NCBI RefSeq assembly: GCF_008629685.1
Contig: NZ_VWSF01000003.1
Span: 284,795 to 348,794, forward strand
Direction: 5' to 3'
Length of the DNA: 64,000 bases
Source of the DNA: Adhaeribacter rhizoryzae
Lineage (GTDB): Bacteria > Bacteroidota > Bacteroidia > Cytophagales > Hymenobacteraceae
A program made the translations under genes and the position numbers. Shown here piece after piece: positions 35,315 through 58,043 of the stretch. Numbering within the stretch: position 1 is the stretch's first letter; each line of letters begins with the position of its first letter. The notes beneath the pieces are model-generated. The model did no database searches. It saw only the letters and a list, made by a program, of their open reading frames with translations, and had not been told where the DNA came from.

Positions 35315-35350
35315 AAATACTAAATTGGTGAAAAATGAACACCATGTAAT

Positions 35351-37708: not shown

Positions 37709-37709
37709 C

Positions 37710-40700: not shown

Positions 40701-42080
40701 CAGGGTACCATTTGTGGTAAGAGCGGGATAATCTGCAAAGCGGCGATATGCCTCCTGCACAAAACCCAAGCTGGGCCGGGCTGATACAGTTTCACGGATT
40801 CCTAAAGTACAGAGCAGCGCAGTAGTAAGCGGATGCAAAGGATAGCACTCATAACCAAGTTGTTTTTGAACTTGTTGTGGTGTCCAGCTTGCGTAACGTG
40901 CCCGAAATAGTAGCTTTGTCATGTCTACAGCAGCATCAAGTTCTGCTTCAGCACTTGGGTTAGAATCTAGAATAGCACTAAGATGTTCCTGTTCTTGTTG
41001 AAGAAAATCACCCAAAACAGCTTCTAGCGGCGAAACAAGTACCTTACGCTGAGGATCTGGAAAACGGGTTAGCTCTCGGTTCACTTCATCTAATCTTGCC
41101 GAGCCTGCGCCCATGGCCCGCTTGGCTATACCTTCAGGCTTAGCCTGTGTAAAGGCTACAATGGCGGCTCTACTTTGTAAACCAGCAACGGCTTCGAGTA
41201 AATTCTGTAGCGGCTGATTTTTGCTGAGCAAATCATATTCATTAGCATAGTCTTGAATAAAACGACCGAATTCATCAAAAAGAATAAGTAACCCAGCAAA
41301 TGGTTTACCCTCACCGCAATATCTTTCAACTACACTTTCTATTACTTGCTTAGGGCCAAGCATATCACCAAAAGCAGGCGGAAACCCGGTTACATGGTGC
41401 ACCATTTGACTTAACTGTTCACGGTACTGGCCTCTGCGTGAAATAAGGTCATCGCGCAAATCCTGTAGGGTAAGTGGCGGGGTAAGTGTTTGCAAAAAGG
41501 CAGTTGCTTTTTCAACGTCAGCTTGCTTAGCAGAGAGCGCCTCCAGCCCCTCCTCGGCGGGCTTGAACCACAAGCCTAGGTCTTCATCTCTGGTGATTGG
41601 ATTTGCTTTAAACGCTTTTTCAAGGCCCCGTACTACTCCTTGAGCTATAGTAATTGTATCATTTCCGAAAAGAGTCAAAACCAAGTATGGTTGGCGTTCT
41701 TCTTTAAAATTTTTAAGTCCTATGTAATCGCCTTTTGCATGCTTTATGGCTTCAAGCACCGCATTTACCTCTGGTGAACCAGCGGGCTTTCCAAAAAAGT
41801 TGGCTAGGGCTAAAGCTAAATGTGACTTACCGTGACCATAGATGGCCTCCCAAAGATGACGGTTTCCCAGCTTTGCAATCTCGTCAGATTCGAATCCAAA
41901 ACGTAAAGTATTTAGAGCATCCAGAGAGGGCAACTCTTCCCCTATCTTTTGGCGAGTCCAGGAGTAAGAACCAGCAAGCCGGGTATTGTTAGAGTGTGCT
42001 GGGTACCAAGCCAAAGCTACATCACTTACAAAAGCAGCCTGGGGATTTTCTTTTGTGATTTGACGTATAGTGTAAGTCAT
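37710..42080 (-). CDS. Large P-loop ATPase, BrxC/PglY-like
   Basis: This 1456-aa protein has an N-terminal P-loop, LWEAIYGHGKSHLALAL (K85), and a Walker B GLLILFDEFGRFI near 263-274. Residues 640-760 resemble a winged-helix or lid region, and the C-terminal quarter (about 1130-1440) is rich in charged heptad-like helices suggesting coiled coils. Size, motif spacing and linkage to PglZ match the BrxC/PglY group of giant ATPases. It lies directly upstream of pglZ. I cannot tell BrxC from PglY by sequence alone, so no symbol is given. A second, unrelated-looking large ATPase is encoded in the same operon (44820-48197). Confidence 0.8.
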   Translation of the reverse strand: MTYTIRQITKENPQAAFVSDVALAWYPAHSNNTRLAGSYSWTRQKIGEELPSLDALNTLRFGFESDEIAKLGNRHLWEAIYGHGKSHLALALANFFGKPAGSPEVNAVLEAIKHAKGDYIGLKNFKEERQPYLVLTLFGNDTITIAQGVVRGLEKAFKANPITRDEDLGLWFKPAEEGLEALSAKQADVEKATAFLQTLTPPLTLQDLRDDLISRRGQYREQLSQMVHHVTGFPPAFGDMLGPKQVIESVVERYCGEGKPFAGLLILFDEFGRFIQDYANEYDLLSKNQPLQNLLEAVAGLQSRAAIVAFTQAKPEGIAKRAMGAGSARLDEVNRELTRFPDPQRKVLVSPLEAVLGDFLQQEQEHLSAILDSNPSAEAELDAAVDMTKLLFRARYASWTPQQVQKQLGYECYPLHPLTTALLCTLGIRETVSARPSLGFVQEAYRRFADYPALTTNGTLQFIPATQLVAYFKESLAKNDEDWNRYQNALRLAGAALPQLKMPESTHLKDDVLAAMFVRETANLAIGTGLTDHEGIISALCGHSRTEVEQALRELAADGRIQYDPAGKKYLFWSLGQDGMKASRTLALETDQLVLDSVDFANALLKQLHTLNYSEEVALGNAIDWAAPVYIIPCVLWSRAYLRQLIRRYQLNTEGTWLDTSVRRGYVIRPVGNIDEEVAWLRTHAQADFDAVIQDLDPAYPPPAVLVLPQQPHNGLLRALAQQQVLDGWGAQTRADLGEKAIEQIQAQTAEQRKLEIEKLRSEERRIIDYKVPSVYAPTVNAIFSTNPTPSLSAILKACYGPAYGWRAPYLDDLSTGTNYRRGVWTACDFLRRDKFNDWDENTRSSAGAPARKVYDKVLRDTPNTWGVVDAGLRVVDPRLDVVQRGWQVLEGAVPVGTNPDERVSLRAPLLKLLNAPYGYDYYALGLLFCAWAGRHRRTLHFYHGVTRQRLSGEEWFTTETNFERVISTLLGPLDLHAAREDQGAVKVHIEQILREWQDHKNLEYSEAETRLAELQDYANNEGSDPELREQTIETVSQLTAAIQNIRDYHSQLNRITEELPALTNAHPDTIQTLVKHLTYVRSGPPQVSVQSFNSGHSGQVEAQLLNKLRTLTIQICNIYTSPLQINTLNKCKESEIKLFSTKSYLNSLTDEIGIFRVEEAMLTIQKERDRLKGEELDSDFLARLKEVEKLKNLGELRAALEEITSRNVHSEKGSAAKQSTLETIQCRIKELEENLTSYYIKASDLPEREGKSIKVLAKEISTLTSTLQRQHDNYLNTEPEATKYSQALKWCEIWGKIMDDITDLSDDTPENNSELQKLLKKYEKLRLIEGSTENQKSFVLEARQAVEDKFKEHVQVAIDTLNDLITRNEQKDESEPPAKIYKELQTAMDSAFHFLPKEEIKRRERLEKALQKRLDADQVEDIAFRFSQIKDVEQRKSCVARLRQLLEQETYVTAD

Positions 42081-42131
42081 AAATTGCCAATGTAAGTGTT
42101 AACTAGGAATGATTATATTTAAAGTGAAATT

Positions 42132-42626
42132 TTAAGATTCTAAAAGTAAATAGCGTAGAGGCCCCCATGTAGAGTCAGGATCTGCAGGGCCAAAACGTTT
42201 AAGTAACTTTGAGGGCAAAGCTATAATTAGTGGAGGCCGGTAAGAAGCAGTGCCATGCAAGCGCTGCCAGAAAGCACTACGTTCGGTTTCTGATAACTTA
42301 GCCAGTAATACATCAATACCCCACACCCAAATACCAGGATGAGTGGGGTCCGGATCTTCTGGGCTTGGAAGCAAGCTCAATGCGTAGTCGAGCAGGAGAG
42401 CGGAGCTTAGGCTAACATGGCCATGGGCTTGGCATCTGTCAGCTACGTATAATCCTAAGTGATGGGCACGGAGGTCCAGGGTTTGAACCCAATTTTCAGG
42501 GGCAGCAAAATATTCAGGAGAATTCAGCACTACTAGGGCTGTCCGAATTCGGGGAGCTGCAGGGCCACGCAACCCTCCGGTAAGCAAACGAAGTGGCAAT
42601 GGAGGATGGGCTATTATAGTTGTCAT
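42132..42626 (-). CDS. Small protein of the BREX-type operon, unknown function
   Basis: This 164-aa protein is leucine- and proline-rich with IWVWGIDVLLAKLSETERSAFWQRLHG in its second half (residues 98-124). That phrase looks like the Walker-B-and-following part of a degenerate small P-loop protein, as in BrxF, but no Walker A motif is present, so I do not assign it. It is 51 bp upstream of the 1456-aa ATPase gene. It lies between two confident operon genes in the same direction, and its length is conserved-looking, not a shadow of another frame. A structural or adaptor role is possible. Confidence 0.6.
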   Translation of the reverse strand: MTTIIAHPPLPLRLLTGGLRGPAAPRIRTALVVLNSPEYFAAPENWVQTLDLRAHHLGLYVADRCQAHGHVSLSSALLLDYALSLLPSPEDPDPTHPGIWVWGIDVLLAKLSETERSAFWQRLHGTASYRPPLIIALPSKLLKRFGPADPDSTWGPLRYLLLES

Positions 42627-42644
42627 ACTTGGGTAATGAGGGAA

Positions 42645-43718
42645 CTAAGCATAAAGAGCTGTCCAAAGTGGTTCTTTATCAGTCCAACGGCGCAAAATCT
42701 GAGGCGGGTCAAAACGTCGCTGACGCTGAACCAAGCCAAGTTGAGGAGCAGCTAACTCGGCTAATTTTGCATTGAAACCATCTACTCCCAGTAACAGTAA
42801 CTTCGGCAAGTTACTTTTAGTTAGTTGTTCCTCATCAATGGAAGCTGAACTTGGGAAATTAGCCTGCCAATAATCTGCTAAAATACAAGCGAAAGCATTT
42901 GTAGGTATGGTTTGGGGAGTACGAACCATATAACTATTCTTCTCTGGCCCTTCTAAAATACCCAATTTAACTAACCCATCATTGGCAGAATAACTACCCA
43001 ATAATGAAGTTGCAGCCACTTCATAAGTACCAAAAGCAAGTTGCTTTTCTCCGGCTTCTATACTAGCAGAAAAAATGAATTCAGCAATTTCCTTTTTATT
43101 TAATGCATTACCAATAAGAAAGCGGTTGGCAATTGTTTTACCCCAAAATTCAGGGCCTAATTCATGTTCAACAGAAATAAAATAGTGTAAAAGCCACTGT
43201 GTCTCAATTCGACTTAAACTTGGGTCGTTATCATAAACGATATACCCAAAATTTGTGATTTCACCATTCCTTTTAATTAACCCGCTGCCTCGTGCATAAT
43301 TTAAATTAGCAATTACTTGATTTTGGCCAAGGGTTGTATATTCTTTTAGAAATGTCTCTGTTGGGATTGATAGTTTGTTTTTTTCTGAAGAAATAAATGC
43401 ACTCAAAATTTGGCTTAAACCTGAACGGCTCATTCTAAAACTTTCTGAGAAAGAAGTTTTTAGTTTTTGACTACCAGCTTCAGCATTCGGGCTATTTTGA
43501 TTATTCAGTATTAACATAATCGTGCTTGTTATATCACAAAGGCTATTATCATTATTGATTAAAATCCAAACATCATCTGAAAAATAAGCATACTCAATGT
43601 TTTCTATGATCCGCTTACTACCACCTCCAGAAGTTGTTAAAATATTGTATCCTGTTTCCCTATTTGGAAGAACCTTATGATTCCAGAAATAGGAGCCTCG
43701 AAGATGAAAGAATGGCAA
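42645..43718 (-). CDS. DUF4007-like protein, surviving ORF of a damaged gene
   Basis: The 357-aa ORF uses a TTG start, but coding-like sequence extends upstream to 43947 (see the pseudogene entry). Its first ~70 residues finish a sulfur-binding-like domain (LPFFHLRGSYFWNH). Residues about 120-330 resemble the intact DUF4007 protein of the same operon: LGQNQVIANLNYARGSGL, then ITNFGYIVYDNDPSLSRI followed by TQWLLHYF, against LGVGKNMVVAIRHWLL and DPYLEDPATLWILHW. It is thus a fused sulfur-reader plus DUF4007-type protein. Whether the truncated ORF is still made is unknown. It lies 18 bp upstream of the 164-aa gene. Confidence 0.65.
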   Translation of the reverse strand: MPFFHLRGSYFWNHKVLPNRETGYNILTTSGGGSKRIIENIEYAYFSDDVWILINNDNSLCDITSTIMLILNNQNSPNAEAGSQKLKTSFSESFRMSRSGLSQILSAFISSEKNKLSIPTETFLKEYTTLGQNQVIANLNYARGSGLIKRNGEITNFGYIVYDNDPSLSRIETQWLLHYFISVEHELGPEFWGKTIANRFLIGNALNKKEIAEFIFSASIEAGEKQLAFGTYEVAATSLLGSYSANDGLVKLGILEGPEKNSYMVRTPQTIPTNAFACILADYWQANFPSSASIDEEQLTKSNLPKLLLLGVDGFNAKLAELAAPQLGLVQRQRRFDPPQILRRWTDKEPLWTALYA

Positions 43719-43947
43719 GCTTACTTGTGCCCAATCTTCTGGACTTGCGTATTCAGAAAAGCGTTAATTGAAAGCTTCAGTTAATTCAGAACTAAAATAA
43801 ATTTTTATTTTGGGTAATATATTTATTTTTAATTAAATCTAATACAGCTAACAAAAAAATTAATTTGTGCGGTTTTTCGCGGCTAGCTAACACATAGCGT
43901 TTTAGGGTAAACAGCTCATTTTTTAATTTAGATAGTGCTTCCATCAT
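43719..43947 (-). pseudogene. Broken 5' end encoding a sulfur-binding-domain-like N-terminus
   Basis: An ATG at 43947, 3 bp past the brxP stop, opens a frame of 51 codons ending at TAG 43794-43792. Its product (MMEALSKLKNELFTLKRY, then REKPHKLIFLLAVLDLI) matches the start of the phosphorothioate-sulfur-binding domain found in many HNH endonucleases. One base over, at the A4 run 43794-43797, the match continues (SSELTEAFN). It stops at TAA 43766-43764, then resumes (RFSEYASPEDWAQVSLP) into the ORF that starts at 43718. So the gene carries one frameshift and one nonsense codon. Either could be a sequencing error, but not easily both. Confidence 0.7.
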
Positions 43948-43950
43948 GAA

Positions 43951-44778
43951 CTATAGGTGACAAATATTGCAGCCGTTTTCACTGTCGTCATCCTCTCCTA
44001 ATAAGTCAACAAGCAATGGATTAGATTTTTTACGAGCTTGTTTCCGTTCATTAAAGTCAGCCATAATTTTAGCTGTTCTTTCTGGTTCGGATAACTCATC
44101 CAAGCTTTCCTTTTGATTCCAAGTATAGCGTCGACCAGATTCCTCATCATACTTTTCAAAGGCTTTTGCCTTTTCGAATAAGTCTGGATGCCTTTCTTTC
44201 AAGCCTACCCACTCATTTCGCTGCTGGTAGAAGCAGAAATAACAACCAGAACGTGAGCGCCACTCATAATATTTAGGCAGTCCAAGCCCACTATCATTCA
44301 GAATTTGCATGATATCATCATAATCTAATCCATCGTCTTTAAAAGGTAGAATTGGTATTATATTTGGCTTACTTGAAATATACCCAGAGCGGTTTTCATC
44401 TGCCCGAATTCCAACATATGAATAAACTAGATCATCACCTACAAAATCTTCAAAAGGCTTAATTTTAAGTACTCGGGTACACCATCGAGTACGGGCATCT
44501 GGTAACATATTATTCCATAAATCCAAAAAATGCTGAAAAGGTCTGTCTGGATTAAGTCGTTCAATTCTCTTACCTAACTGTGCTTCCAGCAAAGCTAAGT
44601 AATCATAGGTTTCAGGTAATTCTTCACCCGTATCAGCAAAGGCATACTCCATTTCGGGCACTTTGTCACGCATATATAAAGCCAAGGCGGTGGAATCCTT
44701 TCCGCCAGAAAGACATAGAATGTGGCGCACCTTTTGTCCTTCCGGATGGCGCGGGCCGGTATAGTTGGGAAGATTCAT
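43951..44778 (-). CDS. brxP: PAPS-reductase/DndC-like ATP-pyrophosphatase (BrxP)
   Basis: This 275-aa protein has the PP-loop LCLSGGKDSTALAL (residues 21-34) of adenylyl-transferring PAPS-reductase relatives. RTRWCTRVLKIKP (Cys near 99) and SGCYFCFYQQRNEW (CxxC near 162-165) match the cysteines that hold an Fe-S cluster in DndC-type enzymes. The C-terminus ends in GCNICHL, an extra CxxC. Such proteins activate the DNA backbone for sulfur insertion in phosphorothioation. A PAPS-reductase-like gene replacing the PglX methylase defines type 4 BREX. Published work has linked type 4 BREX genes to DNA phosphorothioation in Bacteroides. Here it pairs naturally with the cysteine desulfurase of the same operon. 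Confidence 0.88.
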   Translation of the reverse strand: MNLPNYTGPRHPEGQKVRHILCLSGGKDSTALALYMRDKVPEMEYAFADTGEELPETYDYLALLEAQLGKRIERLNPDRPFQHFLDLWNNMLPDARTRWCTRVLKIKPFEDFVGDDLVYSYVGIRADENRSGYISSKPNIIPILPFKDDGLDYDDIMQILNDSGLGLPKYYEWRSRSGCYFCFYQQRNEWVGLKERHPDLFEKAKAFEKYDEESGRRYTWNQKESLDELSEPERTAKIMADFNERKQARKKSNPLLVDLLGEDDDSENGCNICHL

Positions 44779-44819
44779 ATAATTAACTTGGTAAATATAT
44801 AAAAAAATAAATATAAATA

Positions 44820-47800
44820 CTACGCTTGATTCTCTTCTAATGAATCAAGCCATTCTAACACGGCAGCTCGTACCACGTGAGTTGGTGGGCGCTGGCCATT
44901 AGCGGGTTTGGCAATTTGGTCAAACTGCACCAACAATTGTTTTACTTGCTTGCGCTCCAATGCGGTAACGGATGGCCTCGCAGGAGCCATCGCTGGTGTA
45001 GTTCCATTCCAAACAGCTTGCAAAGCCGCACCGAAGGGCGCAGCATAGCTAGGAAAATTAGTCACATCACTATCACGCCAGAGGTTTGGCGGGCGGTTAG
45101 CCACAAGCGCAAGCACCCGCTCCAGATCAGCGGAAGGATTTTGGACATCTGTGAAACGGTTTACAAATGGGCTTAAAAAAGGTGGTAATGTGCGAGCTGG
45201 CAAAGCTTGAACCCGCTGGTGCAGGTCCAACCAACTATCTTCGCCACCTGGTAAGCCGCAGGCCTGAAGTAAATAATCCCTGGCTTGGTCACGGGCAGTA
45301 GGATAAGCTGCTGCCCATGCCTGTAATGCCTGGTTGAGCTGCGTAAAAAAATCTTCCACCTGCTTCTGTTCCGCAGGTGCATCGGCTAACCAGGATGGTA
45401 ATCCAAGAGCAGCCGGAGCGGATTGGAACAGTAAAAATTCGGGAGCACTTGCCTTCTGGAAAGCCTCACGTAAGGCGAGGGCTGCAGCGGGCAAATGACG
45501 TGTCTGCTGGGTGAATTCAGGTAAGCTTGCTTGCATCCGAAGTAAACGGCGCACTACTGGCACAAGCTGGGGCTTAACGCCAGTTGCATTAGCAATACGC
45601 TCTACTACCGCTAACCGGGCTCCGGCAACCCGGCTATCCGCCAAGGCAAACATATCCGGCCGGCGCAGCAATAATTCCCAATCAGCTTCTTTTTCCTCGG
45701 CTAAAAATTGCCCCTCCCGATAAAGTGAAGTATCACCTTCCCGCACACGGCGGAATGCTGCTACCAATACCGGCAGAACCCCATCGGTAAGGCCATGGGG
45801 TGCAGCTCGTAAGTGGCTATAAAGACTAGGCAATGGCAAAGGCTCAGTGGCGTTAAACACTTGGTCCTCGATGGCTTTCCATGCAGGAACAAGATTGAAA
45901 GGGTCTGATTCGTCTGCTTGTTTAGGTGAGCGCCAAGCCCATACACCATTTTCGGTCCGGTAGTGAATACCCGTAGCTAAAAGCATAGATGCATACATAG
46001 CAAATTCTGGTGGAAAGCCTGTAAATCCCAAGCGCTCCTGGTGCCCTTGACTAAGCATGGCTTTTACCAATAAACTGCGAGCCGCAGCCCCAGCAGAGGA
46101 CAATTGGCGGCGGTTAAGTATCTCGTTACGCAGAATAGCAGTATTAGGAAATGTACTATCAGCAAGTTGAGATAATTGACGGCTAAAGGCACCGGCATTA
46201 GCAAAGGCTTTTACTTCGCCATTCCAAAACCAAGTTGCAGCCATTGTAGGGGTTTCAGTAGGTTCTGCCATGCTACTATCTCCTCCTAAGGCAGGTCCAT
46301 AAAGGCGGCCCCATTCACTACGGAAGAGCATTTCGGCCTCGTAGCGCCTCAATGCTAACTCCCTGCGACCGGCCCTGTCTCCTGCTAGTGCTGTTATGGT
46401 ATCCGCTACTACGCGAGAAGCAGCTAAGTAATAGGCAGCTTCCCGTAATCCTTCTGTTTCCAAAGCTACTCCAACAAGAAGGTTTGGCTGGTTCAATCTT
46501 TGAGCATCTTTTTCCGCAAGATCTTGCGCTTGTTGGTTCGGAGCCAAGCAAAGTATAACCGTTAAGTCCGAAGAGAGCTGGTTAGTCCTATTAATTAAAT
46601 CCGCAGGTCGAACCACTTCCACGCCAACCGGACGTAGGGTGCCAGTGCGGAACGAGTGCCGCCGCGCTATCAAACGAGGGAGCTGAAACAGAGTTTGATC
46701 GGAAGTAGCTAGAAGCAGAACATCACCTGATAATGAGGCACGAGCAGCATTCAGTTCTGCATCAATATCAACATCACCAACTTCCCAAAGGCGGTAACTA
46801 TTCCGCGCACGGCTATACACAATAAGTGAGCGGCGCTCCAATTCAGTTAAAGCTTCTACCGCATCTACTCCAGGCCCCAAAGCGGCGGCTAGTACAGTGC
46901 GGGAAGCCGACAGGCGGGGCTCACGTAGCCAGTTTAAGAGAGCAATACATTTCAGGACTTTTACAGCTAAGAAGCTAAGAGCAGGCTCTTTGTTTATTGC
47001 TTGACTTACTAGCTCTACAGCCTCAAGCCATGTTCGGGCAGTTGGACCAGTATAATGAGTTAAAAGTACATCCCGTCCATAATCAAAAAGCGTATCTAAA
47101 GGGAAAAATGCAGGATTAGCAGGATCGTAGATCTGTTCGTTTAGAAATTGTCCTAACGCTCCATTTTCCTGTCCCTCCAGAAAATTAAAAATGCTTCGGT
47201 GACTTTGGCCAGCCCGCCGGAATAAGGCTGGCACAGCTAATAGGGTAACCGGATGTAAAGGGTAAGCAGCGCGGGCGAGCTGTTCAAATCGGTTGGCAAA
47301 GCCAACAGGAAGAAACTGGCTTTGATGATTTATAACAGGTTCAAGCTGGGCTGAAAAAGTACCATTAAGGTGTAAATTCGGATCATGGTAAAGTGCACGC
47401 CCAATAAGATCCATTCGTTCTACGTCTGAAGGAAAAAGGGGTAATTGGCGAAAACGCTGAGCTACTTTTGACCACTCTGCTTGTTGTGTTCGGCCGAGTC
47501 TGTAAGCATAAGCCTCAACATTTTGGTGCAATATGATTAGCACCCATAATTGGGTACCCTCTGGTGCCCTTGATGCAGCTTCTGCCAGTTCCTGAAGTAC
47601 AAATACATCACCTGCTTGGGAGTGCCCAGCTGCATGCTCAAGGAATTTGCCTGCTTCATCCACTAACAGTAATAGACCTTCATGAACTCCGGCAGCAGCT
47701 ACCGCTTGACCTGATGCTAAATAAGCGTTAGCCAAAGCTCGTGGATTAGGTTTCATTTCGGCCGAAAGTAAAGCTGGCGGCAGAGTTGGGGAGCCAGGAG

Positions 47801-48197
47801 CAGTTTCGAGTGCTAGGCGTAAGGCAGCTAATAACGCAGGTCCTATTGCTGCACGGGACCCCACTAGCGGTACCGGCAAAAGCTTTGGTACATCTGGCAA
47901 GTTATCTGGTAGTTTTACGTTAAGCTTAAATTGTGGATCAGACACAAGCCTTGCTAGGAAAGTCGCGAAAGCACTTTTACCAGCCCCATAAGGTCCAATA
48001 AGAGAAAGTGCCCGGTCAGCAGGTGTATGCTGTGCCCGAAGCACACCATTCAGAGCTTCAAGAGCAGAAGGAGTAAGAAAATAATTTTCAGGTGTAGTTG
48101 CTTGGGTAGCAAGGTCCCGCTCCAAATGAACCGACCGGCCAAAACGTGGCCGAACGGAAATTACATCAGATAGCGTTTGGGTAATTATATTAGACAT
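44820..48197 (-). CDS. Large P-loop ATPase of the BREX-type operon (second large ATPase)
   Basis: This 1125-aa protein has Walker A SLIGPYGAGKSAFATFLARL (K74) and Walker B EGLLLLVDEAGKFLEHA near 173-189. Motifs around 225-240 (LWVLIILHQNVEAY) resemble a sensor segment. The C-terminal half is helical without recognisable enzymatic motifs. It is distantly like BrxC-type ATPases, but its motifs differ from those of the 1456-aa neighbour. Two giant ATPases in one operon suggest a two-motor assembly. It is 41 bp upstream of brxP, and the DUF4007 gene starts it off 6 bp upstream. Function beyond ATP binding is inference. Confidence 0.8.
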   Translation of the reverse strand: MSNIITQTLSDVISVRPRFGRSVHLERDLATQATTPENYFLTPSALEALNGVLRAQHTPADRALSLIGPYGAGKSAFATFLARLVSDPQFKLNVKLPDNLPDVPKLLPVPLVGSRAAIGPALLAALRLALETAPGSPTLPPALLSAEMKPNPRALANAYLASGQAVAAAGVHEGLLLLVDEAGKFLEHAAGHSQAGDVFVLQELAEAASRAPEGTQLWVLIILHQNVEAYAYRLGRTQQAEWSKVAQRFRQLPLFPSDVERMDLIGRALYHDPNLHLNGTFSAQLEPVINHQSQFLPVGFANRFEQLARAAYPLHPVTLLAVPALFRRAGQSHRSIFNFLEGQENGALGQFLNEQIYDPANPAFFPLDTLFDYGRDVLLTHYTGPTARTWLEAVELVSQAINKEPALSFLAVKVLKCIALLNWLREPRLSASRTVLAAALGPGVDAVEALTELERRSLIVYSRARNSYRLWEVGDVDIDAELNAARASLSGDVLLLATSDQTLFQLPRLIARRHSFRTGTLRPVGVEVVRPADLINRTNQLSSDLTVILCLAPNQQAQDLAEKDAQRLNQPNLLVGVALETEGLREAAYYLAASRVVADTITALAGDRAGRRELALRRYEAEMLFRSEWGRLYGPALGGDSSMAEPTETPTMAATWFWNGEVKAFANAGAFSRQLSQLADSTFPNTAILRNEILNRRQLSSAGAAARSLLVKAMLSQGHQERLGFTGFPPEFAMYASMLLATGIHYRTENGVWAWRSPKQADESDPFNLVPAWKAIEDQVFNATEPLPLPSLYSHLRAAPHGLTDGVLPVLVAAFRRVREGDTSLYREGQFLAEEKEADWELLLRRPDMFALADSRVAGARLAVVERIANATGVKPQLVPVVRRLLRMQASLPEFTQQTRHLPAAALALREAFQKASAPEFLLFQSAPAALGLPSWLADAPAEQKQVEDFFTQLNQALQAWAAAYPTARDQARDYLLQACGLPGGEDSWLDLHQRVQALPARTLPPFLSPFVNRFTDVQNPSADLERVLALVANRPPNLWRDSDVTNFPSYAAPFGAALQAVWNGTTPAMAPARPSVTALERKQVKQLLVQFDQIAKPANGQRPPTHVVRAAVLEWLDSLEENQA

Positions 48198-48203
48198 AAA
48201 GGG

Positions 48204-49190
48204 TTACGCTAGATTAGGTGCAGCGACATAATGGTGGCGCAACAGGGATAAAGATTTAAGTGGTCCGTCAGAAGTTTTTATAACCTGGCGGACCAATGGA
48301 GTATCTTCAAAACGCAGGACTCCAGAGGTGAGCTCTTCGAGCTGGTCGAGGTAAGCCAGCGTGGAATCTTCATCAAGCTTGAAAACAACGCCTGGGGACC
48401 CCTCTGCATTAACAATATCGCGTACAGCTATGGTATAATTATTTAAATAATTCAATTGCCAGAATTCAATTAAAGCCCAGGCGAAAACAGAAGGTGGCAG
48501 ACTTGGCTTAGGGCCAATGGCAAAGGTCAGCTGTTGATTACCACCAAAGCCAGACCGGACCAATCCCAACTCTCGTAAAGGGCAATCGAGACCATCTTCT
48601 GCATTTTGGCCCCGGTCGGAAGGGGCTAAATAAGTTTGAATAAAAACATTCACATCACGTTCTACCGTTTCCTGAGAGGAGGTTTTAGCGCTAATGGCAC
48701 GGGCTGCAATGCTTACAGCATTAGCAAGAGAGGTGCTAGTCCACTCCCATTCTCGAAAAATATTAAATGCGAAAGCCCACGTAAAGGCAATTGAGCCGGG
48801 ACCACAGAGATTCCAATGAAGAATCCAAAGGGTAGCTGGATCTTCCAGATAGGGATCCACACCATCATCAGCGAGTAAAAAGTCACCTAGTTCAGTAGGT
48901 TGTAAATCGACCCCTCGATCTGTAAGAGAGTTTGCTAATTTGGTCACTAATAACCAATGACGAATTGCCACAACCATATTTTTGCCCACTCCTAACTTTA
49001 CAAGAGCGTCCTCATCTGCGAAAATATGTAAATTGGTTCGAAGCTCATCAATTCCTTTTTTTAACCAGGACGAACGGAGGGCAAAAGTTTGGTGACCTGT
49101 AAAGCTCGGAGCCTTCATTAGTAAGTCTCTTCCCGGAGAGGCTATTTTAGATGGTTTAATGATTGAGTTAGCTTGCGCCGGATTTTGCAT
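48204..49190 (-). CDS. DUF4007 family protein, first gene of the BREX-type operon
   Basis: This 328-aa protein carries FTGHQTFALRSSWLKKG (residues 30-46), the DUF4007 signature, then LGVGKNMVVAIRHWL and DPYLEDPATLWILHW. DUF4007 genes are known neighbours of DNA phosphorothioation and PAPS-reductase genes, but the molecular role is unclear. The region looks like a helical DNA- or protein-binding module. An ATG at residue 25 (position 49118) just before the signature could be the true start; the 24 preceding residues look unstructured. It opens the operon, with the large ATPase gene 6 bp downstream. Confidence 0.85.
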   Translation of the reverse strand: MQNPAQANSIIKPSKIASPGRDLLMKAPSFTGHQTFALRSSWLKKGIDELRTNLHIFADEDALVKLGVGKNMVVAIRHWLLVTKLANSLTDRGVDLQPTELGDFLLADDGVDPYLEDPATLWILHWNLCGPGSIAFTWAFAFNIFREWEWTSTSLANAVSIAARAISAKTSSQETVERDVNVFIQTYLAPSDRGQNAEDGLDCPLRELGLVRSGFGGNQQLTFAIGPKPSLPPSVFAWALIEFWQLNYLNNYTIAVRDIVNAEGSPGVVFKLDEDSTLAYLDQLEELTSGVLRFEDTPLVRQVIKTSDGPLKSLSLLRHHYVAAPNLA

Positions 49191-49699: not shown

Positions 49700-51406
49700 T
49701 TATTCATTTTGACTATTACTTCTAGGTTCTGGAACGGTAACTAATTCCAATGTTTCACCTAGTATAGAGTCATTCTTATCTGTAGCTTTTGACATTTGCC
49801 CCTTTTTTGCAGAATTAATACTGGGCTGCTTTTCTGATTTCTTTTTATCCGTCTTTGATGCAGGTTTAACTTTTTGTTCTTTACCTAGTAAAGTCTCTTG
49901 CTGAATAGATTCACTTGCTTCAGTTACTATTATAGGGACCCCTGATTGAACATCACTTTGATTAAGCTCTCGTGCTGAACCAGCGAATGTTAAGTCTAAT
50001 TGCTCAATAGTCTTTATTTTTCCTACTCTTGATTCTTTTTTTGTTTTTGGAGAAACAGACTTACCCCGTTCCTTAAGAAGGGCCTTCTTAACCGTCCGGT
50101 CCTCCTTTAAAATTTCTAATTCAGGTGTTAAAGTCTGTTCCTGCATTCGAACATCATCTGCAGAAATGGTATGTTCCGTAAATTGTTGAGTTGTTTGCCC
50201 TATCTCGGTGGCAGTATTTATTGATATTACTTGATGTTCCATTTGCTGGGGTACACTAGCAGTTGGAGTGGCTTCATCTATTTCTTTACCTTCAGTAAGG
50301 TCTTTATTTATTAAACTTTCCTCTTTCTCATTACCATTTAGGCGCTTTGTATCGATTTCTGGAGCTTTAAAAAATGCCTTTACCGCAGGTAATTGAGGCT
50401 GTGCTTGGTAAATATCCAGGTTAAGTATATTGTAATATTCATCATAAAACGTTTTGAACTTAAAGAAAGCACCCAACAAAATTATAGCTGCTTTAAATTC
50501 TAGGGGAAAGGTGGTTTTAGCATAAGAGAAAGCTGGGGAGCCTTTAATAGCAGTAAAACTTTCAGCATTTCTTATTTCTTCTTTTAAGAATAAGAAAAGT
50601 GGCGCCAATACATAAAGTTTAAGCTCACCAAATTGAGATTTAGATTTATATCCAGCCGCCAATGGGTCATTTTCTATCTTTTCAACAATTTTTTCAAAAT
50701 TTAATTTTTGGTTTAATGAAAAAAGTTGAGTTAGCAGGTTATGTAGTTTGCTGCCCTCAAAAGCTATTTCTTTGGAATAAGCAAATAATTGCCCCGCATC
50801 AAAAAAGTAACCAATTCGTTCTTTTGGAAAATAGTCGTACCGTTCGTAAGTAAGCAAGTATGCCCAGTACTCTTCATCTTCTAGCTCGCTCGCTTTTTTG
50901 CCTTTGCTTCTTAAGTCTAAACCATGAAATATTTTTTCAGGTCCTATAAGTGCTAAAACTTGGTCTTTATCAGTGGCCTCATCAAGGTAAATTTCCCAAA
51001 GCGCTTCAATCCCCTTGAGGCATTCTTGTTTAATTATAAATTCTTCGGCTATTGCCAGACTGGACTCAAACAAAGGTTCTCCCAAAACAATCCGATCATC
51101 TATCTTTTGAGAAATAGATAACTTAGCATGTTTAGAAAGCGGATAAACAGTAGTTAATTGTTGTATTTCAAACTTAGTATTACCTGGTTTTAATTCGCCT
51201 TCCTGTTGTAAATGGAGTATTACATATTCCTCATCATACTCGAAGGGGGTAATTTGGCTGAGAAGCTTTAGAAGTTCATCCTTTTGAGATTGCTGTATTG
51301 CTCCTTCAAAAGGTATAAGTAGTGCATCTGGCACAAAGGTATATCCAAATCTGTAGAATAGGGTAAATTGTTGCCTTAATACAGGCGTTAAGAAATGATT
51401 TCTCAT
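49700..51406 (-). CDS. 568-aa protein of unknown function in the Hsp70/helicase cassette
   Basis: The first ~330 residues look like a folded domain (HFLTPVLRQQFTLFYRFGYT, EYDEEYVILHLQQEG) with no motif I recognise. From about residue 350 the sequence becomes low-complexity and rich in K, E, S, T and Q, probably disordered. There is no signal peptide, membrane segment or zinc-finger pattern. It is the last gene of the cassette, 8 bp after the helicase gene, in the same direction. A DNA- or protein-binding partner of the helicase is a reasonable guess only. Confidence 0.6.
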   Translation of the reverse strand: MRNHFLTPVLRQQFTLFYRFGYTFVPDALLIPFEGAIQQSQKDELLKLLSQITPFEYDEEYVILHLQQEGELKPGNTKFEIQQLTTVYPLSKHAKLSISQKIDDRIVLGEPLFESSLAIAEEFIIKQECLKGIEALWEIYLDEATDKDQVLALIGPEKIFHGLDLRSKGKKASELEDEEYWAYLLTYERYDYFPKERIGYFFDAGQLFAYSKEIAFEGSKLHNLLTQLFSLNQKLNFEKIVEKIENDPLAAGYKSKSQFGELKLYVLAPLFLFLKEEIRNAESFTAIKGSPAFSYAKTTFPLEFKAAIILLGAFFKFKTFYDEYYNILNLDIYQAQPQLPAVKAFFKAPEIDTKRLNGNEKEESLINKDLTEGKEIDEATPTASVPQQMEHQVISINTATEIGQTTQQFTEHTISADDVRMQEQTLTPELEILKEDRTVKKALLKERGKSVSPKTKKESRVGKIKTIEQLDLTFAGSARELNQSDVQSGVPIIVTEASESIQQETLLGKEQKVKPASKTDKKKSEKQPSINSAKKGQMSKATDKNDSILGETLELVTVPEPRSNSQNE

Positions 51407-51414
51407 AGCTAAAA

Positions 51415-52587
51415 TTAAAAGTCAAAGTCGCTAACTGTCTTTTGTGGATTTTTAGGTTTTAAAAGGTTAGCAATATTAATTTCGGTACAATCATTTTTAA
51501 ATTTGTCGAGGAAATCATGGGTGTACCCAAAATAGGTAAAGTATAAGTTCTTTCTACTGCGGGTCATTGCTACCATAAATAAGGTTTCTACCTTATTAGA
51601 CCCTATATAAAGGCTGCTATTCACGAAAGGAATAAACACATTGTCAAAATCTAATCCCTTAGAGCTATGGTAGGTCATGATAATAATATCTCTGTTTACT
51701 TCTGCGTCGGTTAAAGAGCCATTTCCATTACCAATATATTGAGCTTTTATGCCATTGCTTTTGAGATGCCTATTCATTTTTCCAAAGTCTGGTTTACCAT
51801 AATAATTGTTTACTACATTCCAGACTGGCTTATTCTCAGACGCGAGAAGTTCGTTTACAAACTTAATTATAAGCTTTGCTGTAGGAATAAGGATGGCACA
51901 CGTATCACCTATACTAGCTCCATTTTTTGCTTCTTTGTACACATACTTTATTTCTTCTTCCGTAGAAGAAGCCTCGCATATTCGAATATTCACGTCAACT
52001 TTGGTTAAGTCTCTTTTAGCACCCCAAATATTTATAGAAGGCAGAATCTTTTGCACAGCTACAATAATAGACCGGGTTAAGCGGTGTATGGTATTAAGCA
52101 TGAAAGGGCGTGCCTTAATAAGATCCCCTATACTATCGGGGTCTACTGTTGCATCACGCCATTTAGGGTCCTGGTCGTAAATGGACTGGTTGGAATCTCC
52201 AGCAACAATAACTTTCTTAGCTCTTGTTTGCATGGCATAAAGTACCCGTGATGGAAGGTCCTGTACCTCATCGCAAAACAGATAGTCATAGAAATCATGC
52301 CGCTTATCTACAAATTCATAATAAGTCATAACAGGAACTTTGTTAGAAATCCCCAGTTCTCTTAATCCTGCCTCAAACATATCTTTGAGAGAATGTGTGA
52401 AGACTATAATGGCAGCCTTGGCATTTGGCTCTTTTCTTAATATGTCCCGGAGAGAGTGGACCAGCAGAACAGATTTCCCACTTCCGGCAAATCCTTTAAT
52501 CCAAATGTTACCTACCTTCCTTGACTCTGTATTGACAAAATCCCGCTGATCGGGATCTAATTGGTCTTCTCTAATCATCCAGGCCAT
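51415..52587 (-). CDS. Minimal UvrD/Rep-like SF1 DNA helicase
   Basis: This 390-aa protein holds the SF1A helicase motifs in order: I GFAGSGKS (32-39), II CDEVQD (105-110), III AGDSNQSIY (129-137), V MTYHSSKGLDFDNVFIP (304-320) and VI VAMTRSRKNLYF (339-350). It lacks the large 1B/2B insertions of UvrD and PcrA, so it is much shorter than housekeeping helicases. It sits 8 bp from the 568-aa gene and 11 bp from the Hsp70-like gene. Small SF1 helicases in defence systems (for example GajB) often act as the nucleic-acid sensor or motor. Confidence 0.88.
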   Translation of the reverse strand: MAWMIREDQLDPDQRDFVNTESRKVGNIWIKGFAGSGKSVLLVHSLRDILRKEPNAKAAIIVFTHSLKDMFEAGLRELGISNKVPVMTYYEFVDKRHDFYDYLFCDEVQDLPSRVLYAMQTRAKKVIVAGDSNQSIYDQDPKWRDATVDPDSIGDLIKARPFMLNTIHRLTRSIIVAVQKILPSINIWGAKRDLTKVDVNIRICEASSTEEEIKYVYKEAKNGASIGDTCAILIPTAKLIIKFVNELLASENKPVWNVVNNYYGKPDFGKMNRHLKSNGIKAQYIGNGNGSLTDAEVNRDIIIMTYHSSKGLDFDNVFIPFVNSSLYIGSNKVETLFMVAMTRSRKNLYFTYFGYTHDFLDKFKNDCTEINIANLLKPKNPQKTVSDFDF

Positions 52588-52598
52588 ATTATTTTTAA

Positions 52599-55028
52599 TT
52601 AAACTTTTTTAAGTTTGTTTTCTACTGCGGTTTGGGTAAGGTTTTCTGAATTGTAGAGCGAATCACCTTTAAATCTTGGTGCAGCCTCTCTTACCTGCTG
52701 AGCAAAATCTTTCATATTCAGTTTCTCAGCAGCTGATGATAGCCAACCATAATTGTTTCGGGATAATTGATTTGTATCATATTCCTTCTTCCAGATATCA
52801 AAGGCTTTCTGTATCATCTTAACTCCTTCAGGATTTCCCTCCGTTTTATACAAAGAGCCTAGTTCATATAAGCTGTGTGGTTTCTCGGGGTCTAGTTCGA
52901 TTGATTCCTCTAATATCTCTTTAAATTTTAGTTGGTCTTTATGTTTTAGCTTATAAGCATAATTGAAAGCAACTGTAGCATCTTTATCCTTTTCAAATGC
53001 TTGCTCATAATACTCTAATGCCTTGTCATCATAACCTGCACTTGAATAAAGAACCCCTAAATAATTAAAATTAGAATTTTGGGGATATAGTTGATTTAAT
53101 AATTCAAGTGTCTCTGCGGCCCGTAAATAATTTTCTACCCTCTCATAAGCTTTAAAAAGAACCTTAAGTCCATCTTTAGTGGGTTTGCCCCCATTCATTT
53201 CAGCCTCTACGTTAGCTTGCCTCTCAGCTTTAAGCACAATACGTTCTTCAGCGGTAAGGTCCTTGTTGGCAAATGGGTTGATAGGTTCTACAATTACCAT
53301 TTGTCCGGCAGCGGATGCTCTGGCATGCAGAACTTTATCTGAATTAACCTCCAGCTCAAGCCGTACTGCGGTATTTTTCTTAAAACCTAGCGGGTCGCCA
53401 CTTACTATTTTTATATTATAAAGCAATTTGCTGGTATTTCCCAAGCACACAGGGAGCTCAATGGCTTGCTGGCCATCTGTGTGGGTTACCAGATCATCAA
53501 TTACAATCAGGTCGCAAGGTATAGTGGTACCAGCCCTTAATATTACTTTCGGGGTTTCGTCTTTTGTAATAACCAATATAGGCTCACTCGTTATAGGTTG
53601 AATAATGTTTTTGTTAAAACCATTATAAACTAAAGAGTGGATAGCAGCACCTGCAGATACATGTGTTTGCAAGTCATTTGGAATTAATAATTCTGACTCA
53701 GGAAAATAATCTTTTAAAGAAGCCTGGATATAAGGGTTTTTAGAGCTTCCTCCTATAAAAAGTACATAATCAACATCATTTTTAGGAAGGTTAGCTTTGT
53801 TAAGGGCGCTGTAAATAGGGTTGTAGACACTGATAAATTCATCCTGACCAATTCCTTTTGTGGTCGATCTTTGATTTCCGACCTTGGTGAAGACAGCCAT
53901 TGCATCGGCGAATTGTTTATATGTTAACTTAGGTTCCGTTAAGGTTAATAGTCCTTTGCTGGTGTCAATTTCTATAGAATAACCAAGAGATACGGTAGTG
54001 GTACTGACCGCAGTAGCCGGAAGTATTCTCTCAGACATTTGCAAGCCAACCGTATTACAAATCATTATTTTTAGCTGTTCTGCTGCTTTGAGCAGCTTAG
54101 GTACAAGACTTTTGTTAATTTCAGGTGTTCTGAAATCCTTTTTCGTTAAACCATTCTCTATCCAAAGCTGTGGTAATAGATATTCCAGCACTAAGTACCG
54201 GTCAATGTCGTCACCACCCAACTTCTCAAACTTTGAAATTGATAGGTTTTTAGAATAGATTCCCTGGTGGTCTTTACCAATTTCCAAAATAGAAACATCA
54301 CAAGTTCCCGCACCAAAGTCAAAAACCAAAACATTTAAATTATAATTATCGGGCAATTTCAACGCTTGGCCTGTGGCTGAAGATTGTTGCACATAGCTTA
54401 GGAATGCTGCGTTAGGCTCGTCTATCAAAGCTTGTTTGTTGACCGATATGCCATTTTGCTCAAGGGCCTGCACCAATTCTTTCCTTTGGTTCGCTTCAAA
54501 AGATGCTGGTATACTTACTGCATATTGTATATGAGTAGGCAAGTTTTTACTTGCTATATACCTGTCTATCTGAGCTTTTAGATAGGTAAAAAATACTTTC
54601 GCTGCATCTTTTGGTGTTTGGATGGTATACTTGCTACTCTTATTCAGTTCGCTGTTAAAGTATTTTGGACCTAAATCTTCACCAAGCTCCATTTTAAAGG
54701 AATACCAAACATTAACACCTTTTTTTAACACATATTTTAAGTCTGATGCTCCTTCACCTACTAAAAGCTGTTCGTTATACCACGCAACCACCGTTGGTAT
54801 TTTCTCCGAGGACATAACTGTGCCATCAACAAGCTTCTGATTAAGCCAGATTGCTTCAGTACTTAAACCTTTTTCTCCGCTGCCTAAAGTAGCTATTGTG
54901 ACAACAGTAGTGGATGTTCCAAAATCTATACCGATGAAAGTCTTATTAGATAAGTTAACACTAGGTGTTGATAGGTTGTCATATTTTAGAGCTGGAAATA
55001 GACTTTGTACTGATATATTAGTTGGCAT
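52599..55028 (-). CDS. Hsp70/DnaK-like ATPase with C-terminal TPR region
   Basis: An Hsp70-fold ATPase: phosphate-1 FIGIDFGTSTTVV (31-43), connect IDEPNAAFLSY, phosphate-2 VLVFDFGAGTCDVSI (233-247) and adenosine YVLFIGGSSKNPYIQA. A beta-sandwich-like part with a VVIDD-type linker follows. From about residue 635 to 790 it has TPR-like helical repeats (YLRAAETLELLNQLYPQNSNF, then YDDKALEYYEQAFEKDKDA) instead of the usual DnaK lid. The start is the ATG at 55028 (809 aa); a TTG at 55076 would add 16 residues. It leads the three-gene cassette. A recruiting or sensing role by the TPR is inference. Confidence 0.85.
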   Translation of the reverse strand: MPTNISVQSLFPALKYDNLSTPSVNLSNKTFIGIDFGTSTTVVTIATLGSGEKGLSTEAIWLNQKLVDGTVMSSEKIPTVVAWYNEQLLVGEGASDLKYVLKKGVNVWYSFKMELGEDLGPKYFNSELNKSSKYTIQTPKDAAKVFFTYLKAQIDRYIASKNLPTHIQYAVSIPASFEANQRKELVQALEQNGISVNKQALIDEPNAAFLSYVQQSSATGQALKLPDNYNLNVLVFDFGAGTCDVSILEIGKDHQGIYSKNLSISKFEKLGGDDIDRYLVLEYLLPQLWIENGLTKKDFRTPEINKSLVPKLLKAAEQLKIMICNTVGLQMSERILPATAVSTTTVSLGYSIEIDTSKGLLTLTEPKLTYKQFADAMAVFTKVGNQRSTTKGIGQDEFISVYNPIYSALNKANLPKNDVDYVLFIGGSSKNPYIQASLKDYFPESELLIPNDLQTHVSAGAAIHSLVYNGFNKNIIQPITSEPILVITKDETPKVILRAGTTIPCDLIVIDDLVTHTDGQQAIELPVCLGNTSKLLYNIKIVSGDPLGFKKNTAVRLELEVNSDKVLHARASAAGQMVIVEPINPFANKDLTAEERIVLKAERQANVEAEMNGGKPTKDGLKVLFKAYERVENYLRAAETLELLNQLYPQNSNFNYLGVLYSSAGYDDKALEYYEQAFEKDKDATVAFNYAYKLKHKDQLKFKEILEESIELDPEKPHSLYELGSLYKTEGNPEGVKMIQKAFDIWKKEYDTNQLSRNNYGWLSSAAEKLNMKDFAQQVREAAPRFKGDSLYNSENLTQTAVENKLKKV

Positions 55029-55577: not shown

Positions 55578-58043
55578 ATGAAATTTCTACCCAATCTTTA
55601 TTTGCGGCAAAGTCTTGTTTTTTGGCTATTCCTGGTCGCACCGGTTGTTCCTATACTGGCTCAGGAGGTAAACACCTACCAGACCCCTCCTAAACCACTG
55701 GCAGACTTGGTGACTGTGCCCCCCACGCCAAGAGTAAGTGTTTCGGATAAGACCCAGGTCATGCTCATCCTGGAACAGGCTGCTGCTCCTTCTATTGCCG
55801 AACTAGCGCAACCCGAACTTAGACTGGCGGGGTTACGAATGAACCCGGCCAACAATGGCCCTACCCGGACCCGCTATATTACCGGCATAAAAATCAAAAA
55901 ACTTTCGGGCAAAGAGGAAGTGGCTTTGAAAGGATTACCTGCCCAGCCCCAAATTAGCAATGTGCAGTGGTCGCCGGACGAAACCAGGTTTGCGTTTACC
56001 AATGCTACTGATAACCAGATTGAACTTTACCTGGCCGATGTAGCCACTGCTACCGCTCGGAAAGTAGGCAACCTTGCCCTGAATAGTGTATTGGGTTCAC
56101 CTTTCTATTGGGTATCCGATGGGAAGAGCCTTATTGTAAAAACTATTCCAGCCGGCCGGCCCCCCACTGTTACGCCCAGCCGCGTGCCCGCTGGCCCCAC
56201 TACGCAGGAGAACCTGGGCCGCAAATCCCAGGCACCCACTTACCAGGATTTATTGAAGAACCCTTCCGACGAGCAACAGTTTATTTACTATGCCACCAGC
56301 CAAATCATGCGGGTAGGTTTAGATGGTCAAGCTACCCCTATTGGCAAGCCCGGCATTATTGCCTCCGCGGACCCTTCGCCGGATGGGAAGTACGTGTTGG
56401 TGGAGACCTTCCACACGCCTTTTTCCTACTTGGTGCCGGTGTACCGGTTTCCGCTTATAACCGAGGTTTACACCATAGCTGGCGCGCTTGTTAAAACCCT
56501 GAACGATTCTCCATTACAGGATTATATTCCCTACACCCCCGATGGTGCGCCTACCGGCCCCCGGGATTTTAACTGGCGGGCGGATGCGCCGGCTTCCGTG
56601 TACTACACCGTAGCCCAGGACAAAGGAGACCCGAAGGTGAAAGTGGACATCCGGGATAAGGTGTATCTGGTGGAGGTGCCTTTTACGGGTGAACCAAAAG
56701 AAATTTACGCTGCCCAGTACCGGTTCGAGAACTTTGCCTGGGGGAGCGAAACTGTAGCCTTAGCGCACGAGCAATGGTGGCAAACCCGGAAAGCCATCAC
56801 GAAAGTAGTTAACCCGGGTACCTGGCAAGCGACTACCCTTTTTGACCGCTCGTATGAAGACCGCTACACCGACCCGGGAGAACCCGATATGAAGCACAAC
56901 CAATTTGGCCGTCCGGTTCTCAACTTACTGGCCAATGACCAGGTGCTGATGCTTAACAACCTGGGCGCATCACCCGAGGGTGACAGACCGTTTGTCAGTT
57001 TGTTAAACCTGAAGACCAAGCAAGCCAAACAACTATGGCGTTCAGCGGCGCCTTACCTGGAACGTCCTATTTCGGTACTCGATGCCGGCAAGCAGGTAAT
57101 CTTAACCACCCGCGAAACTCCCAGCGAGAACCCGAACTATTTCATGCGCAGCCTGAAAGGCCGCAGCAAGCCGGTGCAAGTGACTAGCTTTGCCCATCCT
57201 TACCCACAACTCAAAAACGTGCAAAAACAACAACTCCGTTACAAGCGGGCGGACGGGGTAGAGTTAACCGCCATGTTATACCTGCCGGCTGGTTACAAAA
57301 AAAGTCAGGGACCTTTACCTACTTTTCTGTGGGCTTACCCAGCTGAATTTAAAAGTAAAGATGCGGCGGGCCAGGTATCCGGTTCTCCTTACCAGTTTAA
57401 CCGGATTAGTTATTGGGGAGCCGCCGCCTTTGTAACCATGGGCTACGCTATTCTGGATAACGCCAGCATTCCGATTGTAGGGGAAGGTGACAAAGAACCA
57501 AATGATACCTACGTAGAACAATTAGTATCCAGTGCGAAAGCTGCTGTTGAAGAAGGCGTTCGTTTAGGGGTAGTAGATTCTACCCGGATAGGTGTGGGTG
57601 GTCATTCTTACGGGGCATTCATGACGGCTAATCTCTTATCCTACAGCCGCATGTTCAAAGCCGGGATTGCCCGCAGTGGTGCTTACAACCGGACCTTGAC
57701 GCCTTTTGGCTTCCAGAATGAACAGCGTACTTACTGGCAGGCACCTGAGGTATATAATAGAATGTCCCCTTTTATGAATGCCGATAAGATGAAAACGCCC
57801 TTGCTGCTTATCCACGGGGAAGCGGATAACAATACCGGTACTTACCCCATCCAATCCGAACGTTACTTTAATGCCCTAAAAGGCTTTGGGGCCACCACCC
57901 GGCTGGTGCTACTGCCTTACGAAAGCCACGGCTATACGGCCAAAGAATCCCTGCTGCACATGCTCTACGAAATGAATACCTGGTTAGACCGGTACGTGAA
58001 GAATGCCAAGACAAATGCCACGTTAACAGGACAGGCAAAATAG
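55578..58043 (+). CDS. Secreted S9 family (prolyl oligopeptidase / glutamyl endopeptidase-like) peptidase
   Basis: This 821-aa protein has a signal peptide (LRQSLVFWLFLVAPVVPILAQ). A long beta-propeller-like region is followed by an alpha/beta-hydrolase domain. The nucleophile is S677 in GVGGHSYGAFM; the acid lies in LLIHGEADNNTG and the histidine in YESHGYTAKESL. Among S9 enzymes the N-terminal PPKPLADLV start and this spacing fit the Bacteroidota group annotated as glutamyl endopeptidase. It is likely periplasmic or surface-exposed, for peptide degradation. A terminator-like hairpin follows at 58081-58111. Confidence 0.9.
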   Translation: MKFLPNLYLRQSLVFWLFLVAPVVPILAQEVNTYQTPPKPLADLVTVPPTPRVSVSDKTQVMLILEQAAAPSIAELAQPELRLAGLRMNPANNGPTRTRYITGIKIKKLSGKEEVALKGLPAQPQISNVQWSPDETRFAFTNATDNQIELYLADVATATARKVGNLALNSVLGSPFYWVSDGKSLIVKTIPAGRPPTVTPSRVPAGPTTQENLGRKSQAPTYQDLLKNPSDEQQFIYYATSQIMRVGLDGQATPIGKPGIIASADPSPDGKYVLVETFHTPFSYLVPVYRFPLITEVYTIAGALVKTLNDSPLQDYIPYTPDGAPTGPRDFNWRADAPASVYYTVAQDKGDPKVKVDIRDKVYLVEVPFTGEPKEIYAAQYRFENFAWGSETVALAHEQWWQTRKAITKVVNPGTWQATTLFDRSYEDRYTDPGEPDMKHNQFGRPVLNLLANDQVLMLNNLGASPEGDRPFVSLLNLKTKQAKQLWRSAAPYLERPISVLDAGKQVILTTRETPSENPNYFMRSLKGRSKPVQVTSFAHPYPQLKNVQKQQLRYKRADGVELTAMLYLPAGYKKSQGPLPTFLWAYPAEFKSKDAAGQVSGSPYQFNRISYWGAAAFVTMGYAILDNASIPIVGEGDKEPNDTYVEQLVSSAKAAVEEGVRLGVVDSTRIGVGGHSYGAFMTANLLSYSRMFKAGIARSGAYNRTLTPFGFQNEQRTYWQAPEVYNRMSPFMNADKMKTPLLLIHGEADNNTGTYPIQSERYFNALKGFGATTRLVLLPYESHGYTAKESLLHMLYEMNTWLDRYVKNAKTNATLTGQAK

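Follow-up and report, generated by a model that had tools for sequence, protein, structure and literature searches.

Gene organization at the locus

The window analyzed here is a 64,000-nucleotide stretch of the Adhaeribacter rhizoryzae genome, and our subject is a set of three intact, co-oriented open reading frames (ORFs) on its reverse strand, which we call the trio. Gene 1 (52599–55028) encodes an Hsp70-TPR protein of 809 aa when read from its ATG, or of 825 aa from an alternative in-frame TTG at 55076. Gene 2 (51415–52587) encodes a minimal superfamily 1 (SF1) helicase of UvrD/GajB-like type (390 aa), and gene 3 (49700–51406) a protein of 568 aa, hereafter the third protein. An earlier, sequence-only reading of this DNA had placed three genes on one strand, 8–11 bp apart, and the ORF coordinates confirm this: 11 bp separate the Hsp70 and helicase genes, and 8 bp the helicase and third genes. 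All trio features given below by coordinate lie on the same strand. A search for promoters and terminators found 18 and 5, respectively, against 20.4 and 4.7 in shuffled sequences; counts so close to the shuffles provide no evidence for such signals.

Conservation of the three-gene unit

The Hsp70, helicase, and third genes form a conserved three-gene unit. When genome contigs were scanned with the helicase alignment, 80 loci were returned; the best eleven (L007–L017) match over nearly the whole length at E ≤ 1e-54. A recognizable third gene follows the helicase in all 10 of these that can be tested (the contig of L007 ends at this point): seven were detected by pairwise search, and L015, L016, and L017 by profile. 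A profile trained without the latter three recovers them at 5e-32, 4.5e-19, and 4e-10, respectively, among 1245 ORFs, the best nonmember reaching 0.027. On the other side, a chaperone gene precedes the helicase in 10 out of 10 testable loci (the contig of L010 is too short upstream). The chaperone is an Hsp70-TPR protein in nine of the 10 and a ClpB-like Hsp100 in one (L013), the latter a double AAA+ protein in which both Walker A/B pairs are intact. Among the Hsp70 genes, that of L014 is cut by the contig, and that of L009 (5538–7979) is split over two frames (168 + 619 aa), so this copy may be broken or mis-sequenced.

The same order is seen in L006, L087, L089, L107, and L108, in L109 (where the Hsp70 gene is cut), and in L110 (Hsp70, then the helicase start at the contig end). 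L006 is an Antarctobacter plasmid in which the trio lies between insertion sequence (IS) elements, and L124, a Persicobacter plasmid, carries a divergent trio (helicase profile E 1.1e-35); the third proteins of these two are not recognized by our third-protein models. The genes are tightly spaced throughout: in the twelve loci measured, the chaperone–helicase gap is 1 to 13 bp, while helicase and third gene lie 2 to 14 bp apart in 11 of them and 53 bp apart in L017. One Hydrogenedentota locus (L023) has an Hsp70 and helicase pair with no adjoining third gene, its Hsp70 keeping the DnaK catalytic lysine, and was excluded from the trio counts. The search for conserved co-occurrence that had been proposed with the sequence-only reading thus found linkage in 10 out of 10 testable loci on each side of the helicase, and the recurrence of this gene order in other genomes indicates a grouping beyond chance.

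Two of these loci have additional genes in close association. In L013 (3929–10763), a ThiF/E1-like gene (Pfam, 3.1e-30) overlaps the ClpB-like gene at its start, with the helicase and third protein next. L016 (25–17086) is a run of eight co-oriented genes: a type IIG-like gene, a 373-aa gene, a diverged helicase relative, a 208-aa gene (AlkB-like by eye only), a methyltransferase-like–Hsp70 fusion, the helicase, the third protein, and a DruE-like helicase.

The Hsp70-TPR protein

Gene 1 was originally read as an Hsp70-fold ATPase whose lid is replaced by a TPR-like region, and our comparisons agree. It matches Pfam HSP70 at E 1e-29; TPR matches C-terminal of HSP70 are all below the cut-off, but NCBIfam TPR-type matches are also present. 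In alignment with the genome's own DnaK (L114), TPR-like sequence occupies the position of the lid, and neither the Pfam scan nor this alignment detected a DnaK-type alpha-helical lid. The nucleotide-binding domain spans approximately residues 28–476 (53601–54947; borders set by motif). It is followed by an altered interdomain linker, IQPITSEP where DnaK has LLLDVTP, then by a beta substrate-binding domain (approximately residues 477–583; 53280–53600) and the TPR-like part (approximately residues 584–809; 52602–53279).

The nucleotide-binding site shows a consistent pattern of retention and loss. Equivalents of D8, T11, E171, D194, T199, and D201 are kept in 14 out of 14 trio Hsp70s, whereas those of N13 and G197 are changed in all 14. 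The position of the catalytic lysine of DnaK, K70, holds S, A, Y, or F in every one of the 14 and Y in L124 (lost in 15 out of 15 in total). In the window it is Ser95 (54744–54746), with Lys98 three residues further. A basic residue at this shifted position is the rule (Lys in 13 out of 14 and also in L124, Arg in L006), and it is possible that it stands in as the catalytic lysine; several of the 14 proteins are closely related, so these are not 14 independent events. Near the C terminus, residues 792–797 (52638–52655) form an aromatic-x-x-x-N-L motif, identified by eye. It can be seen in 13 of the 14 trio Hsp70s, is absent in L016, and is one residue longer in L124; it is possibly a docking peptide.

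The Hsp70 of L006 (5118–7997) carries an N-terminal extension that weakly resembles HEPN_Swt1 (E 0.0015; 19.3 bits, cut-off 27.5) and has the motif RNRHAH. A hidden HEPN-type reading upstream of the window Hsp70 was ruled out: The ∼500-bp interval that separates the trio from the neighboring peptidase gene (55.08–55.58 kb) has stops in all three reverse-strand frames.

The helicase

Gene 2 matches UvrD_C, UvrD-helicase, and Viral_helicase1 of Pfam above their cut-offs. In an alignment of 18 sequences including the window, 55 columns are kept in at least 94% of sequences, among them Walker A (residues 32–39; 52471–52494) and the DExQD motif of Walker B (DEVQD, residues 106–110; 52258–52272), in keeping with the original description of a 390-aa protein with SF1 motifs. 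The match to GajB (PADLOC PDLC00122, 1.3e-17; solved GajB chains, 2e-15) is significant but partial and falls within general UvrD similarity. The 18 PDB matches at E ≤ 1e-5 are of UvrD/PcrA/Rep/GajB/HelD type or AddA or F-box helicases, and none is UPF1. The protein is a minimal helicase, with neither a nuclease nor an insert.

The third protein

Nothing in PADLOC, Pfam, NCBIfam, or PHROGs matches the third protein at E ≤ 0.01, and a search of PDB sequences with a 12-sequence profile likewise found no match at E ≤ 1. Its structure model is confident at residues 1–335 and low at 336–430 and 447–568, which upholds the folded N-terminal part and disordered tail of the sequence-only reading. As modeled, the protein resembles a DarT-like ADP-ribosyltransferase (ART) domain followed by an ADP-ribosylhydrolase (ARH)-like helical domain, the latter likeness being weak. 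The ART-like part is an alpha/beta domain (residues 1–117; 51056–51406). The next part is all-helical (residues 118–335; 50402–51055), with Gly312 kept in 18 out of 18 sequences, and the remainder is a low-confidence, fast-changing tail (residues 336–568; 49703–50401). Comparison of profiles found no significant homology between the third protein and the partner protein of a sister cassette (locus L018, see below); that partner has three matches among PDB sequences at E ≤ 10, none of them an ARH entry.

No invariant catalytic triad was found in the third protein, and no single His, Arg, or Glu of the N-terminal domain is kept in 80% of the 18 sequences. Charge is better preserved than residue type: positions 11, 19, 101, and 105 are basic in 15 to 16 out of 18, and Glu60 is kept in 13. 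We infer an ART/ARH ancestry and a probable loss of catalysis. In 55 out of 55 pairs, the third protein evolves faster than the helicase, making it a better candidate for a sensor than the Hsp70, which the sequence-only reading had cast in that role.

Genomic neighborhoods

The trio occurs in defense-rich neighborhoods. We scanned neighboring ORFs at 20 trio loci against PADLOC and found strong defense matches in 11; the other nine have none among the neighbors scanned, several of them being short contigs. Eight of the eleven involve restriction–modification (R-M), BREX/Ssp, or DISARM-like genes. The matches are BREX/Ssp in the window; type IIG in L007, L009, and L108; a partial type IIG match and a DruE-like gene in L016; DrmD in L087; HsdM and HsdS in L089; HsdR and PDC-S68 in L012; AbiEi and AbiEii in L010; an MkoA-like gene in L011; and PDC-S02 in L013. 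Pooled at E ≤ 1e-20, 102 neighbor ORFs of the 20 trio loci hit 187 PADLOC families; in the control, 121 ORFs surrounding 10 generic UvrD genes hit 40. The 25 control families listed are all helicase models, from nine members that are the UvrD genes themselves. This comparison is crude, the control not being taxon-matched and the families listed being 25 of 187 (trio) and 25 of 40 (control), and we therefore treat it as support only.

In the window itself, a type-4-BREX/Ssp-like operon (32715–49190, reverse strand; PADLOC and Pfam matches) begins ∼500 bp downstream of the trio with SspB (DUF4007) nearest. It further contains SspC/BrxC, SspD (PAPS reductase), a second DUF4007 protein, proteins of 164 and 1456 aa, PglZ, BrxL, and SspA/DndA. 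Upstream, at 55578–58043, lies an intact S9-type peptidase gene (Pfam). The sequence-only reading had set the trio between a type-4-BREX-like operon and gene debris: the operon is there, but the 55-kb side carries the peptidase and no debris. Within the operon, the 1456-aa (37710–42080) and 164-aa (42132–42626) proteins are matched by no family of PADLOC (E ≤ 0.01) or Pfam (E ≤ 0.001). The second DUF4007/SspB-like protein (42645–43718) is divergent (27.4 bits in Pfam, where the cut-off is 27).

Distribution and probable transfer

The trio is rare and scattered. A third-protein relative was found in four out of 204 genomes of the family, and a full-length helicase in seven out of 390 genomes of the order, while two more show just a piece at a contig end or a weak match of sister type. 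A phylum sample gave two out of 395 genomes plus one weak sister-type match, and the order of L013 one out of 295, L013 itself. The hosts are Bacteroidota, one alphaproteobacterial plasmid, and two contigs from metagenome-assembled genomes (MAGs), labeled Methylomonas (L017) and Gracilibacteria (L015), in both of which binning errors are possible. The helicase and third-protein core is 94% identical between L010 (a Vicingaceae MAG) and L011 (Polaribacter), which belong to different families.

AT content is higher in the trio than on either side of it in eight out of nine loci (the exception is L011). In the window, the GC content at third codon positions is 26%–36% in the trio, 46%–54% in the genes at 17.5–31.9 kb, and 56% in the peptidase gene; the genes at 0.8–14 kb are also AT-rich. 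This composition fits horizontal transfer. Out of 50,697 phage records, one has a helicase match (28%), and three viral-contig relatives are all of the sister type. Among 72,556 plasmid records, there are no matches to the third protein, one to the helicase, and two to the Hsp70 at E ≤ 1e-30.

Comparison with described systems

The gene set matches none of the named systems that we compared, although its parts come from known superfamilies. Among the closest is type III of CoCoNuT, a predicted defense system (CnuD, Hsp70-like; CnuH, SF1 helicase; CnuE, effector) that likewise pairs an Hsp70-like protein with an SF1 helicase, and for whose Hsp70-like part the authors likewise infer weak ATP hydrolysis (PMC11090510). 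CoCoNuT is described there as resting on an McrB-like GTPase and on a helicase of UPF1 type that bears a large insertion behind Walker A, whereas the trio helicase is minimal and UvrD/GajB-like. The Hsp70-like protein is present in the trio (Pfam HSP70). However, no McrB-like (NxD) GTPase gene was found among the window neighbors scanned with Pfam and PADLOC (32.7–58.0 kb), and the 390-aa gene 2 product has neither the UPF1-like type nor the large helical insertion behind Walker A; membership of CoCoNuT type II or III was rejected on both the GTPase and the helicase type. Gabija pairs an SF1 helicase, GajB, whose models gene 2 matches in part, with the OLD nuclease GajA and has no chaperone, where the trio has a chaperone and an unmatched third protein. 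No GajA OLD-type nuclease match was found in the third protein, the Hsp70, or the scanned window neighbors, and Gabija membership was also rejected.

DarTG and ART–ARH pairs differ from the third protein in that it lacks a sequence match and an invariant triad and would carry both parts on a single chain, with a helicase and a chaperone encoded alongside. A role of the chaperone machinery in phage sensing is reported for bNACHT25 (PMC12169576), but the protein there is the housekeeping DnaJ, while the trio encodes a dedicated Hsp70 or Hsp100. PADLOC PDC-M61B weakly matches trio Hsp70s (window, E 0.0017; L016, 7.9e-7; L006, 2.4e-6) over only 60–80 residues round the phosphate-2 motif, and no PDC-M61 match was seen for the other two genes. 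Hypnos, considered as the name of an Hsp70 system, was dropped after a literature search gave nothing relevant.

No PADLOC system matches all three proteins, and no publication was found that appeared to describe the trio, in a search that covered preprints and subscription papers little. The proposed comparison with defense models, now run, leaves the third protein unmatched in four libraries and the Hsp70 with PDC-M61B only. The original suggestion of a candidate undescribed defense cassette holds in part: as to a conserved unit, a defense-type neighborhood, and no covering model set, and as to the absence of a named system for the trio; its gene debris does not stand.

Proposed mechanism and alternative explanations

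Our preferred interpretation, to which we assign a probability of about 0.4, is that the trio is a horizontally moving anti-phage (or anti-mobile-element) cassette whose small helicase is held by a pseudo-ART/ARH sensor and gated by a chaperone. The occupation of one slot by two unrelated remodeling ATPases suggests a protein partner as the target of the first gene's product; with a helicase that has neither nuclease nor insert and a fast-changing third protein, this points to a chaperone-gated helicase. We infer the defense function, all physical contacts, and the order of events as follows. The third protein, a DarT-like ART fold with an ARH-like helical domain whose catalysis is probably lost, would be the recognition part and would keep the helicase in check. 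Upon sensed infection the chaperone (Hsp70-TPR, or ClpB-like Hsp100 in one locus) would remodel or release the complex of these two, and the freed helicase may then work on the invading nucleic acid, either preventing its replication or exposing it to nucleases. There is precedent for such remodeling: DnaK/DnaJ free DnaB from lambda P, and DnaK or ClpA activate RepA of plasmid P1. If defensive, the trio would encode a dedicated chaperone that serves as its control element, and, given the Hsp70/Hsp100 exchange, what a chaperone contributes to immunity could be tested directly by a one-gene swap. ADP-ribosylation folds would then also gain a role in sensing instead of catalysis. At 5.3 kb, and in a defense-rich stretch, it is small enough to be transferred whole to a laboratory host.

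The same parts could also make up a chaperone-controlled toxin, in which the third protein, or, where there is one, the HEPN-like or methyltransferase-like fusion part of the Hsp70, is the active effector, a toxin-like ADP-ribosyltransferase or hydrolase kept folded or silent by the chaperone. The ART-like fold matches of the model, the charged N-domain positions that are often kept, and the sub-cut-off HEPN_Swt1 match on the Antarctobacter Hsp70 favor this. However, no His, Arg, or Glu of that domain is retained as a single type in all or even 80% of the sequences, and the HEPN piece occurs in L006 only; we consider a toxin unlikely. Slightly more improbable is that the trio serves as an accessory module of neighboring R-M, BREX/Ssp, or DISARM-like systems. 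Such genes lie near it in eight out of 20 loci and in some directly adjoin it (a type IIG gene 30 bp upstream in L007; L016; L089), but these systems are unrelated to one another (type I, type IIG, Ssp/BREX, DrmD-like), the trio is elsewhere accompanied by AbiE, a Mokosh-like gene, or nothing but IS elements, and ∼500 bp separate it from SspB in the window.

A UvrD-like helicase and two plasmid copies are what one might see if the trio served mobile islands and plasmids in DNA repair, replication, or element maintenance and not in immunity, and DnaK and Clp chaperones do remodel the proteins with which phages and plasmids initiate replication or load helicases. The rarity of the trio within one order (seven full-length copies in 390 genomes) and its association with defense genes make this less probable again. 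That the three genes are chance neighbors on one strand, for which nothing but the rarity of the trio speaks, is refuted by an order conserved in 10 out of 10 testable loci across phyla, and we give it almost no weight.

Related arrangements

The anti-phage cassette interpretation can be extended into a form that we regard as doubtful. Here, in what would be a new type of immune system, ATP-driven and interchangeable Hsp70 or Hsp100 proteins would license a minimal helicase held by a fused, catalytically dead ART/ARH pair turned infection sensor, and the same core would underlie a wider cassette group with a varying first gene (Hsp70, ClpB-like, methyltransferase-like, or NERD protein). Possible ligands of the sensor would be ADP-ribosylated or phage-altered nucleic acid or NAD-derived molecules.

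L018 (1–8244) has a trio remnant at the contig start, consisting of the helicase end and the third protein, and then the sister cassette: a methyltransferase-like gene, a short helicase, and a 735-aa partner. In L020 and L041, short-helicase relatives of ∼635 aa lie directly behind genes of 2365 and 2211 aa, respectively, possibly a further arrangement.

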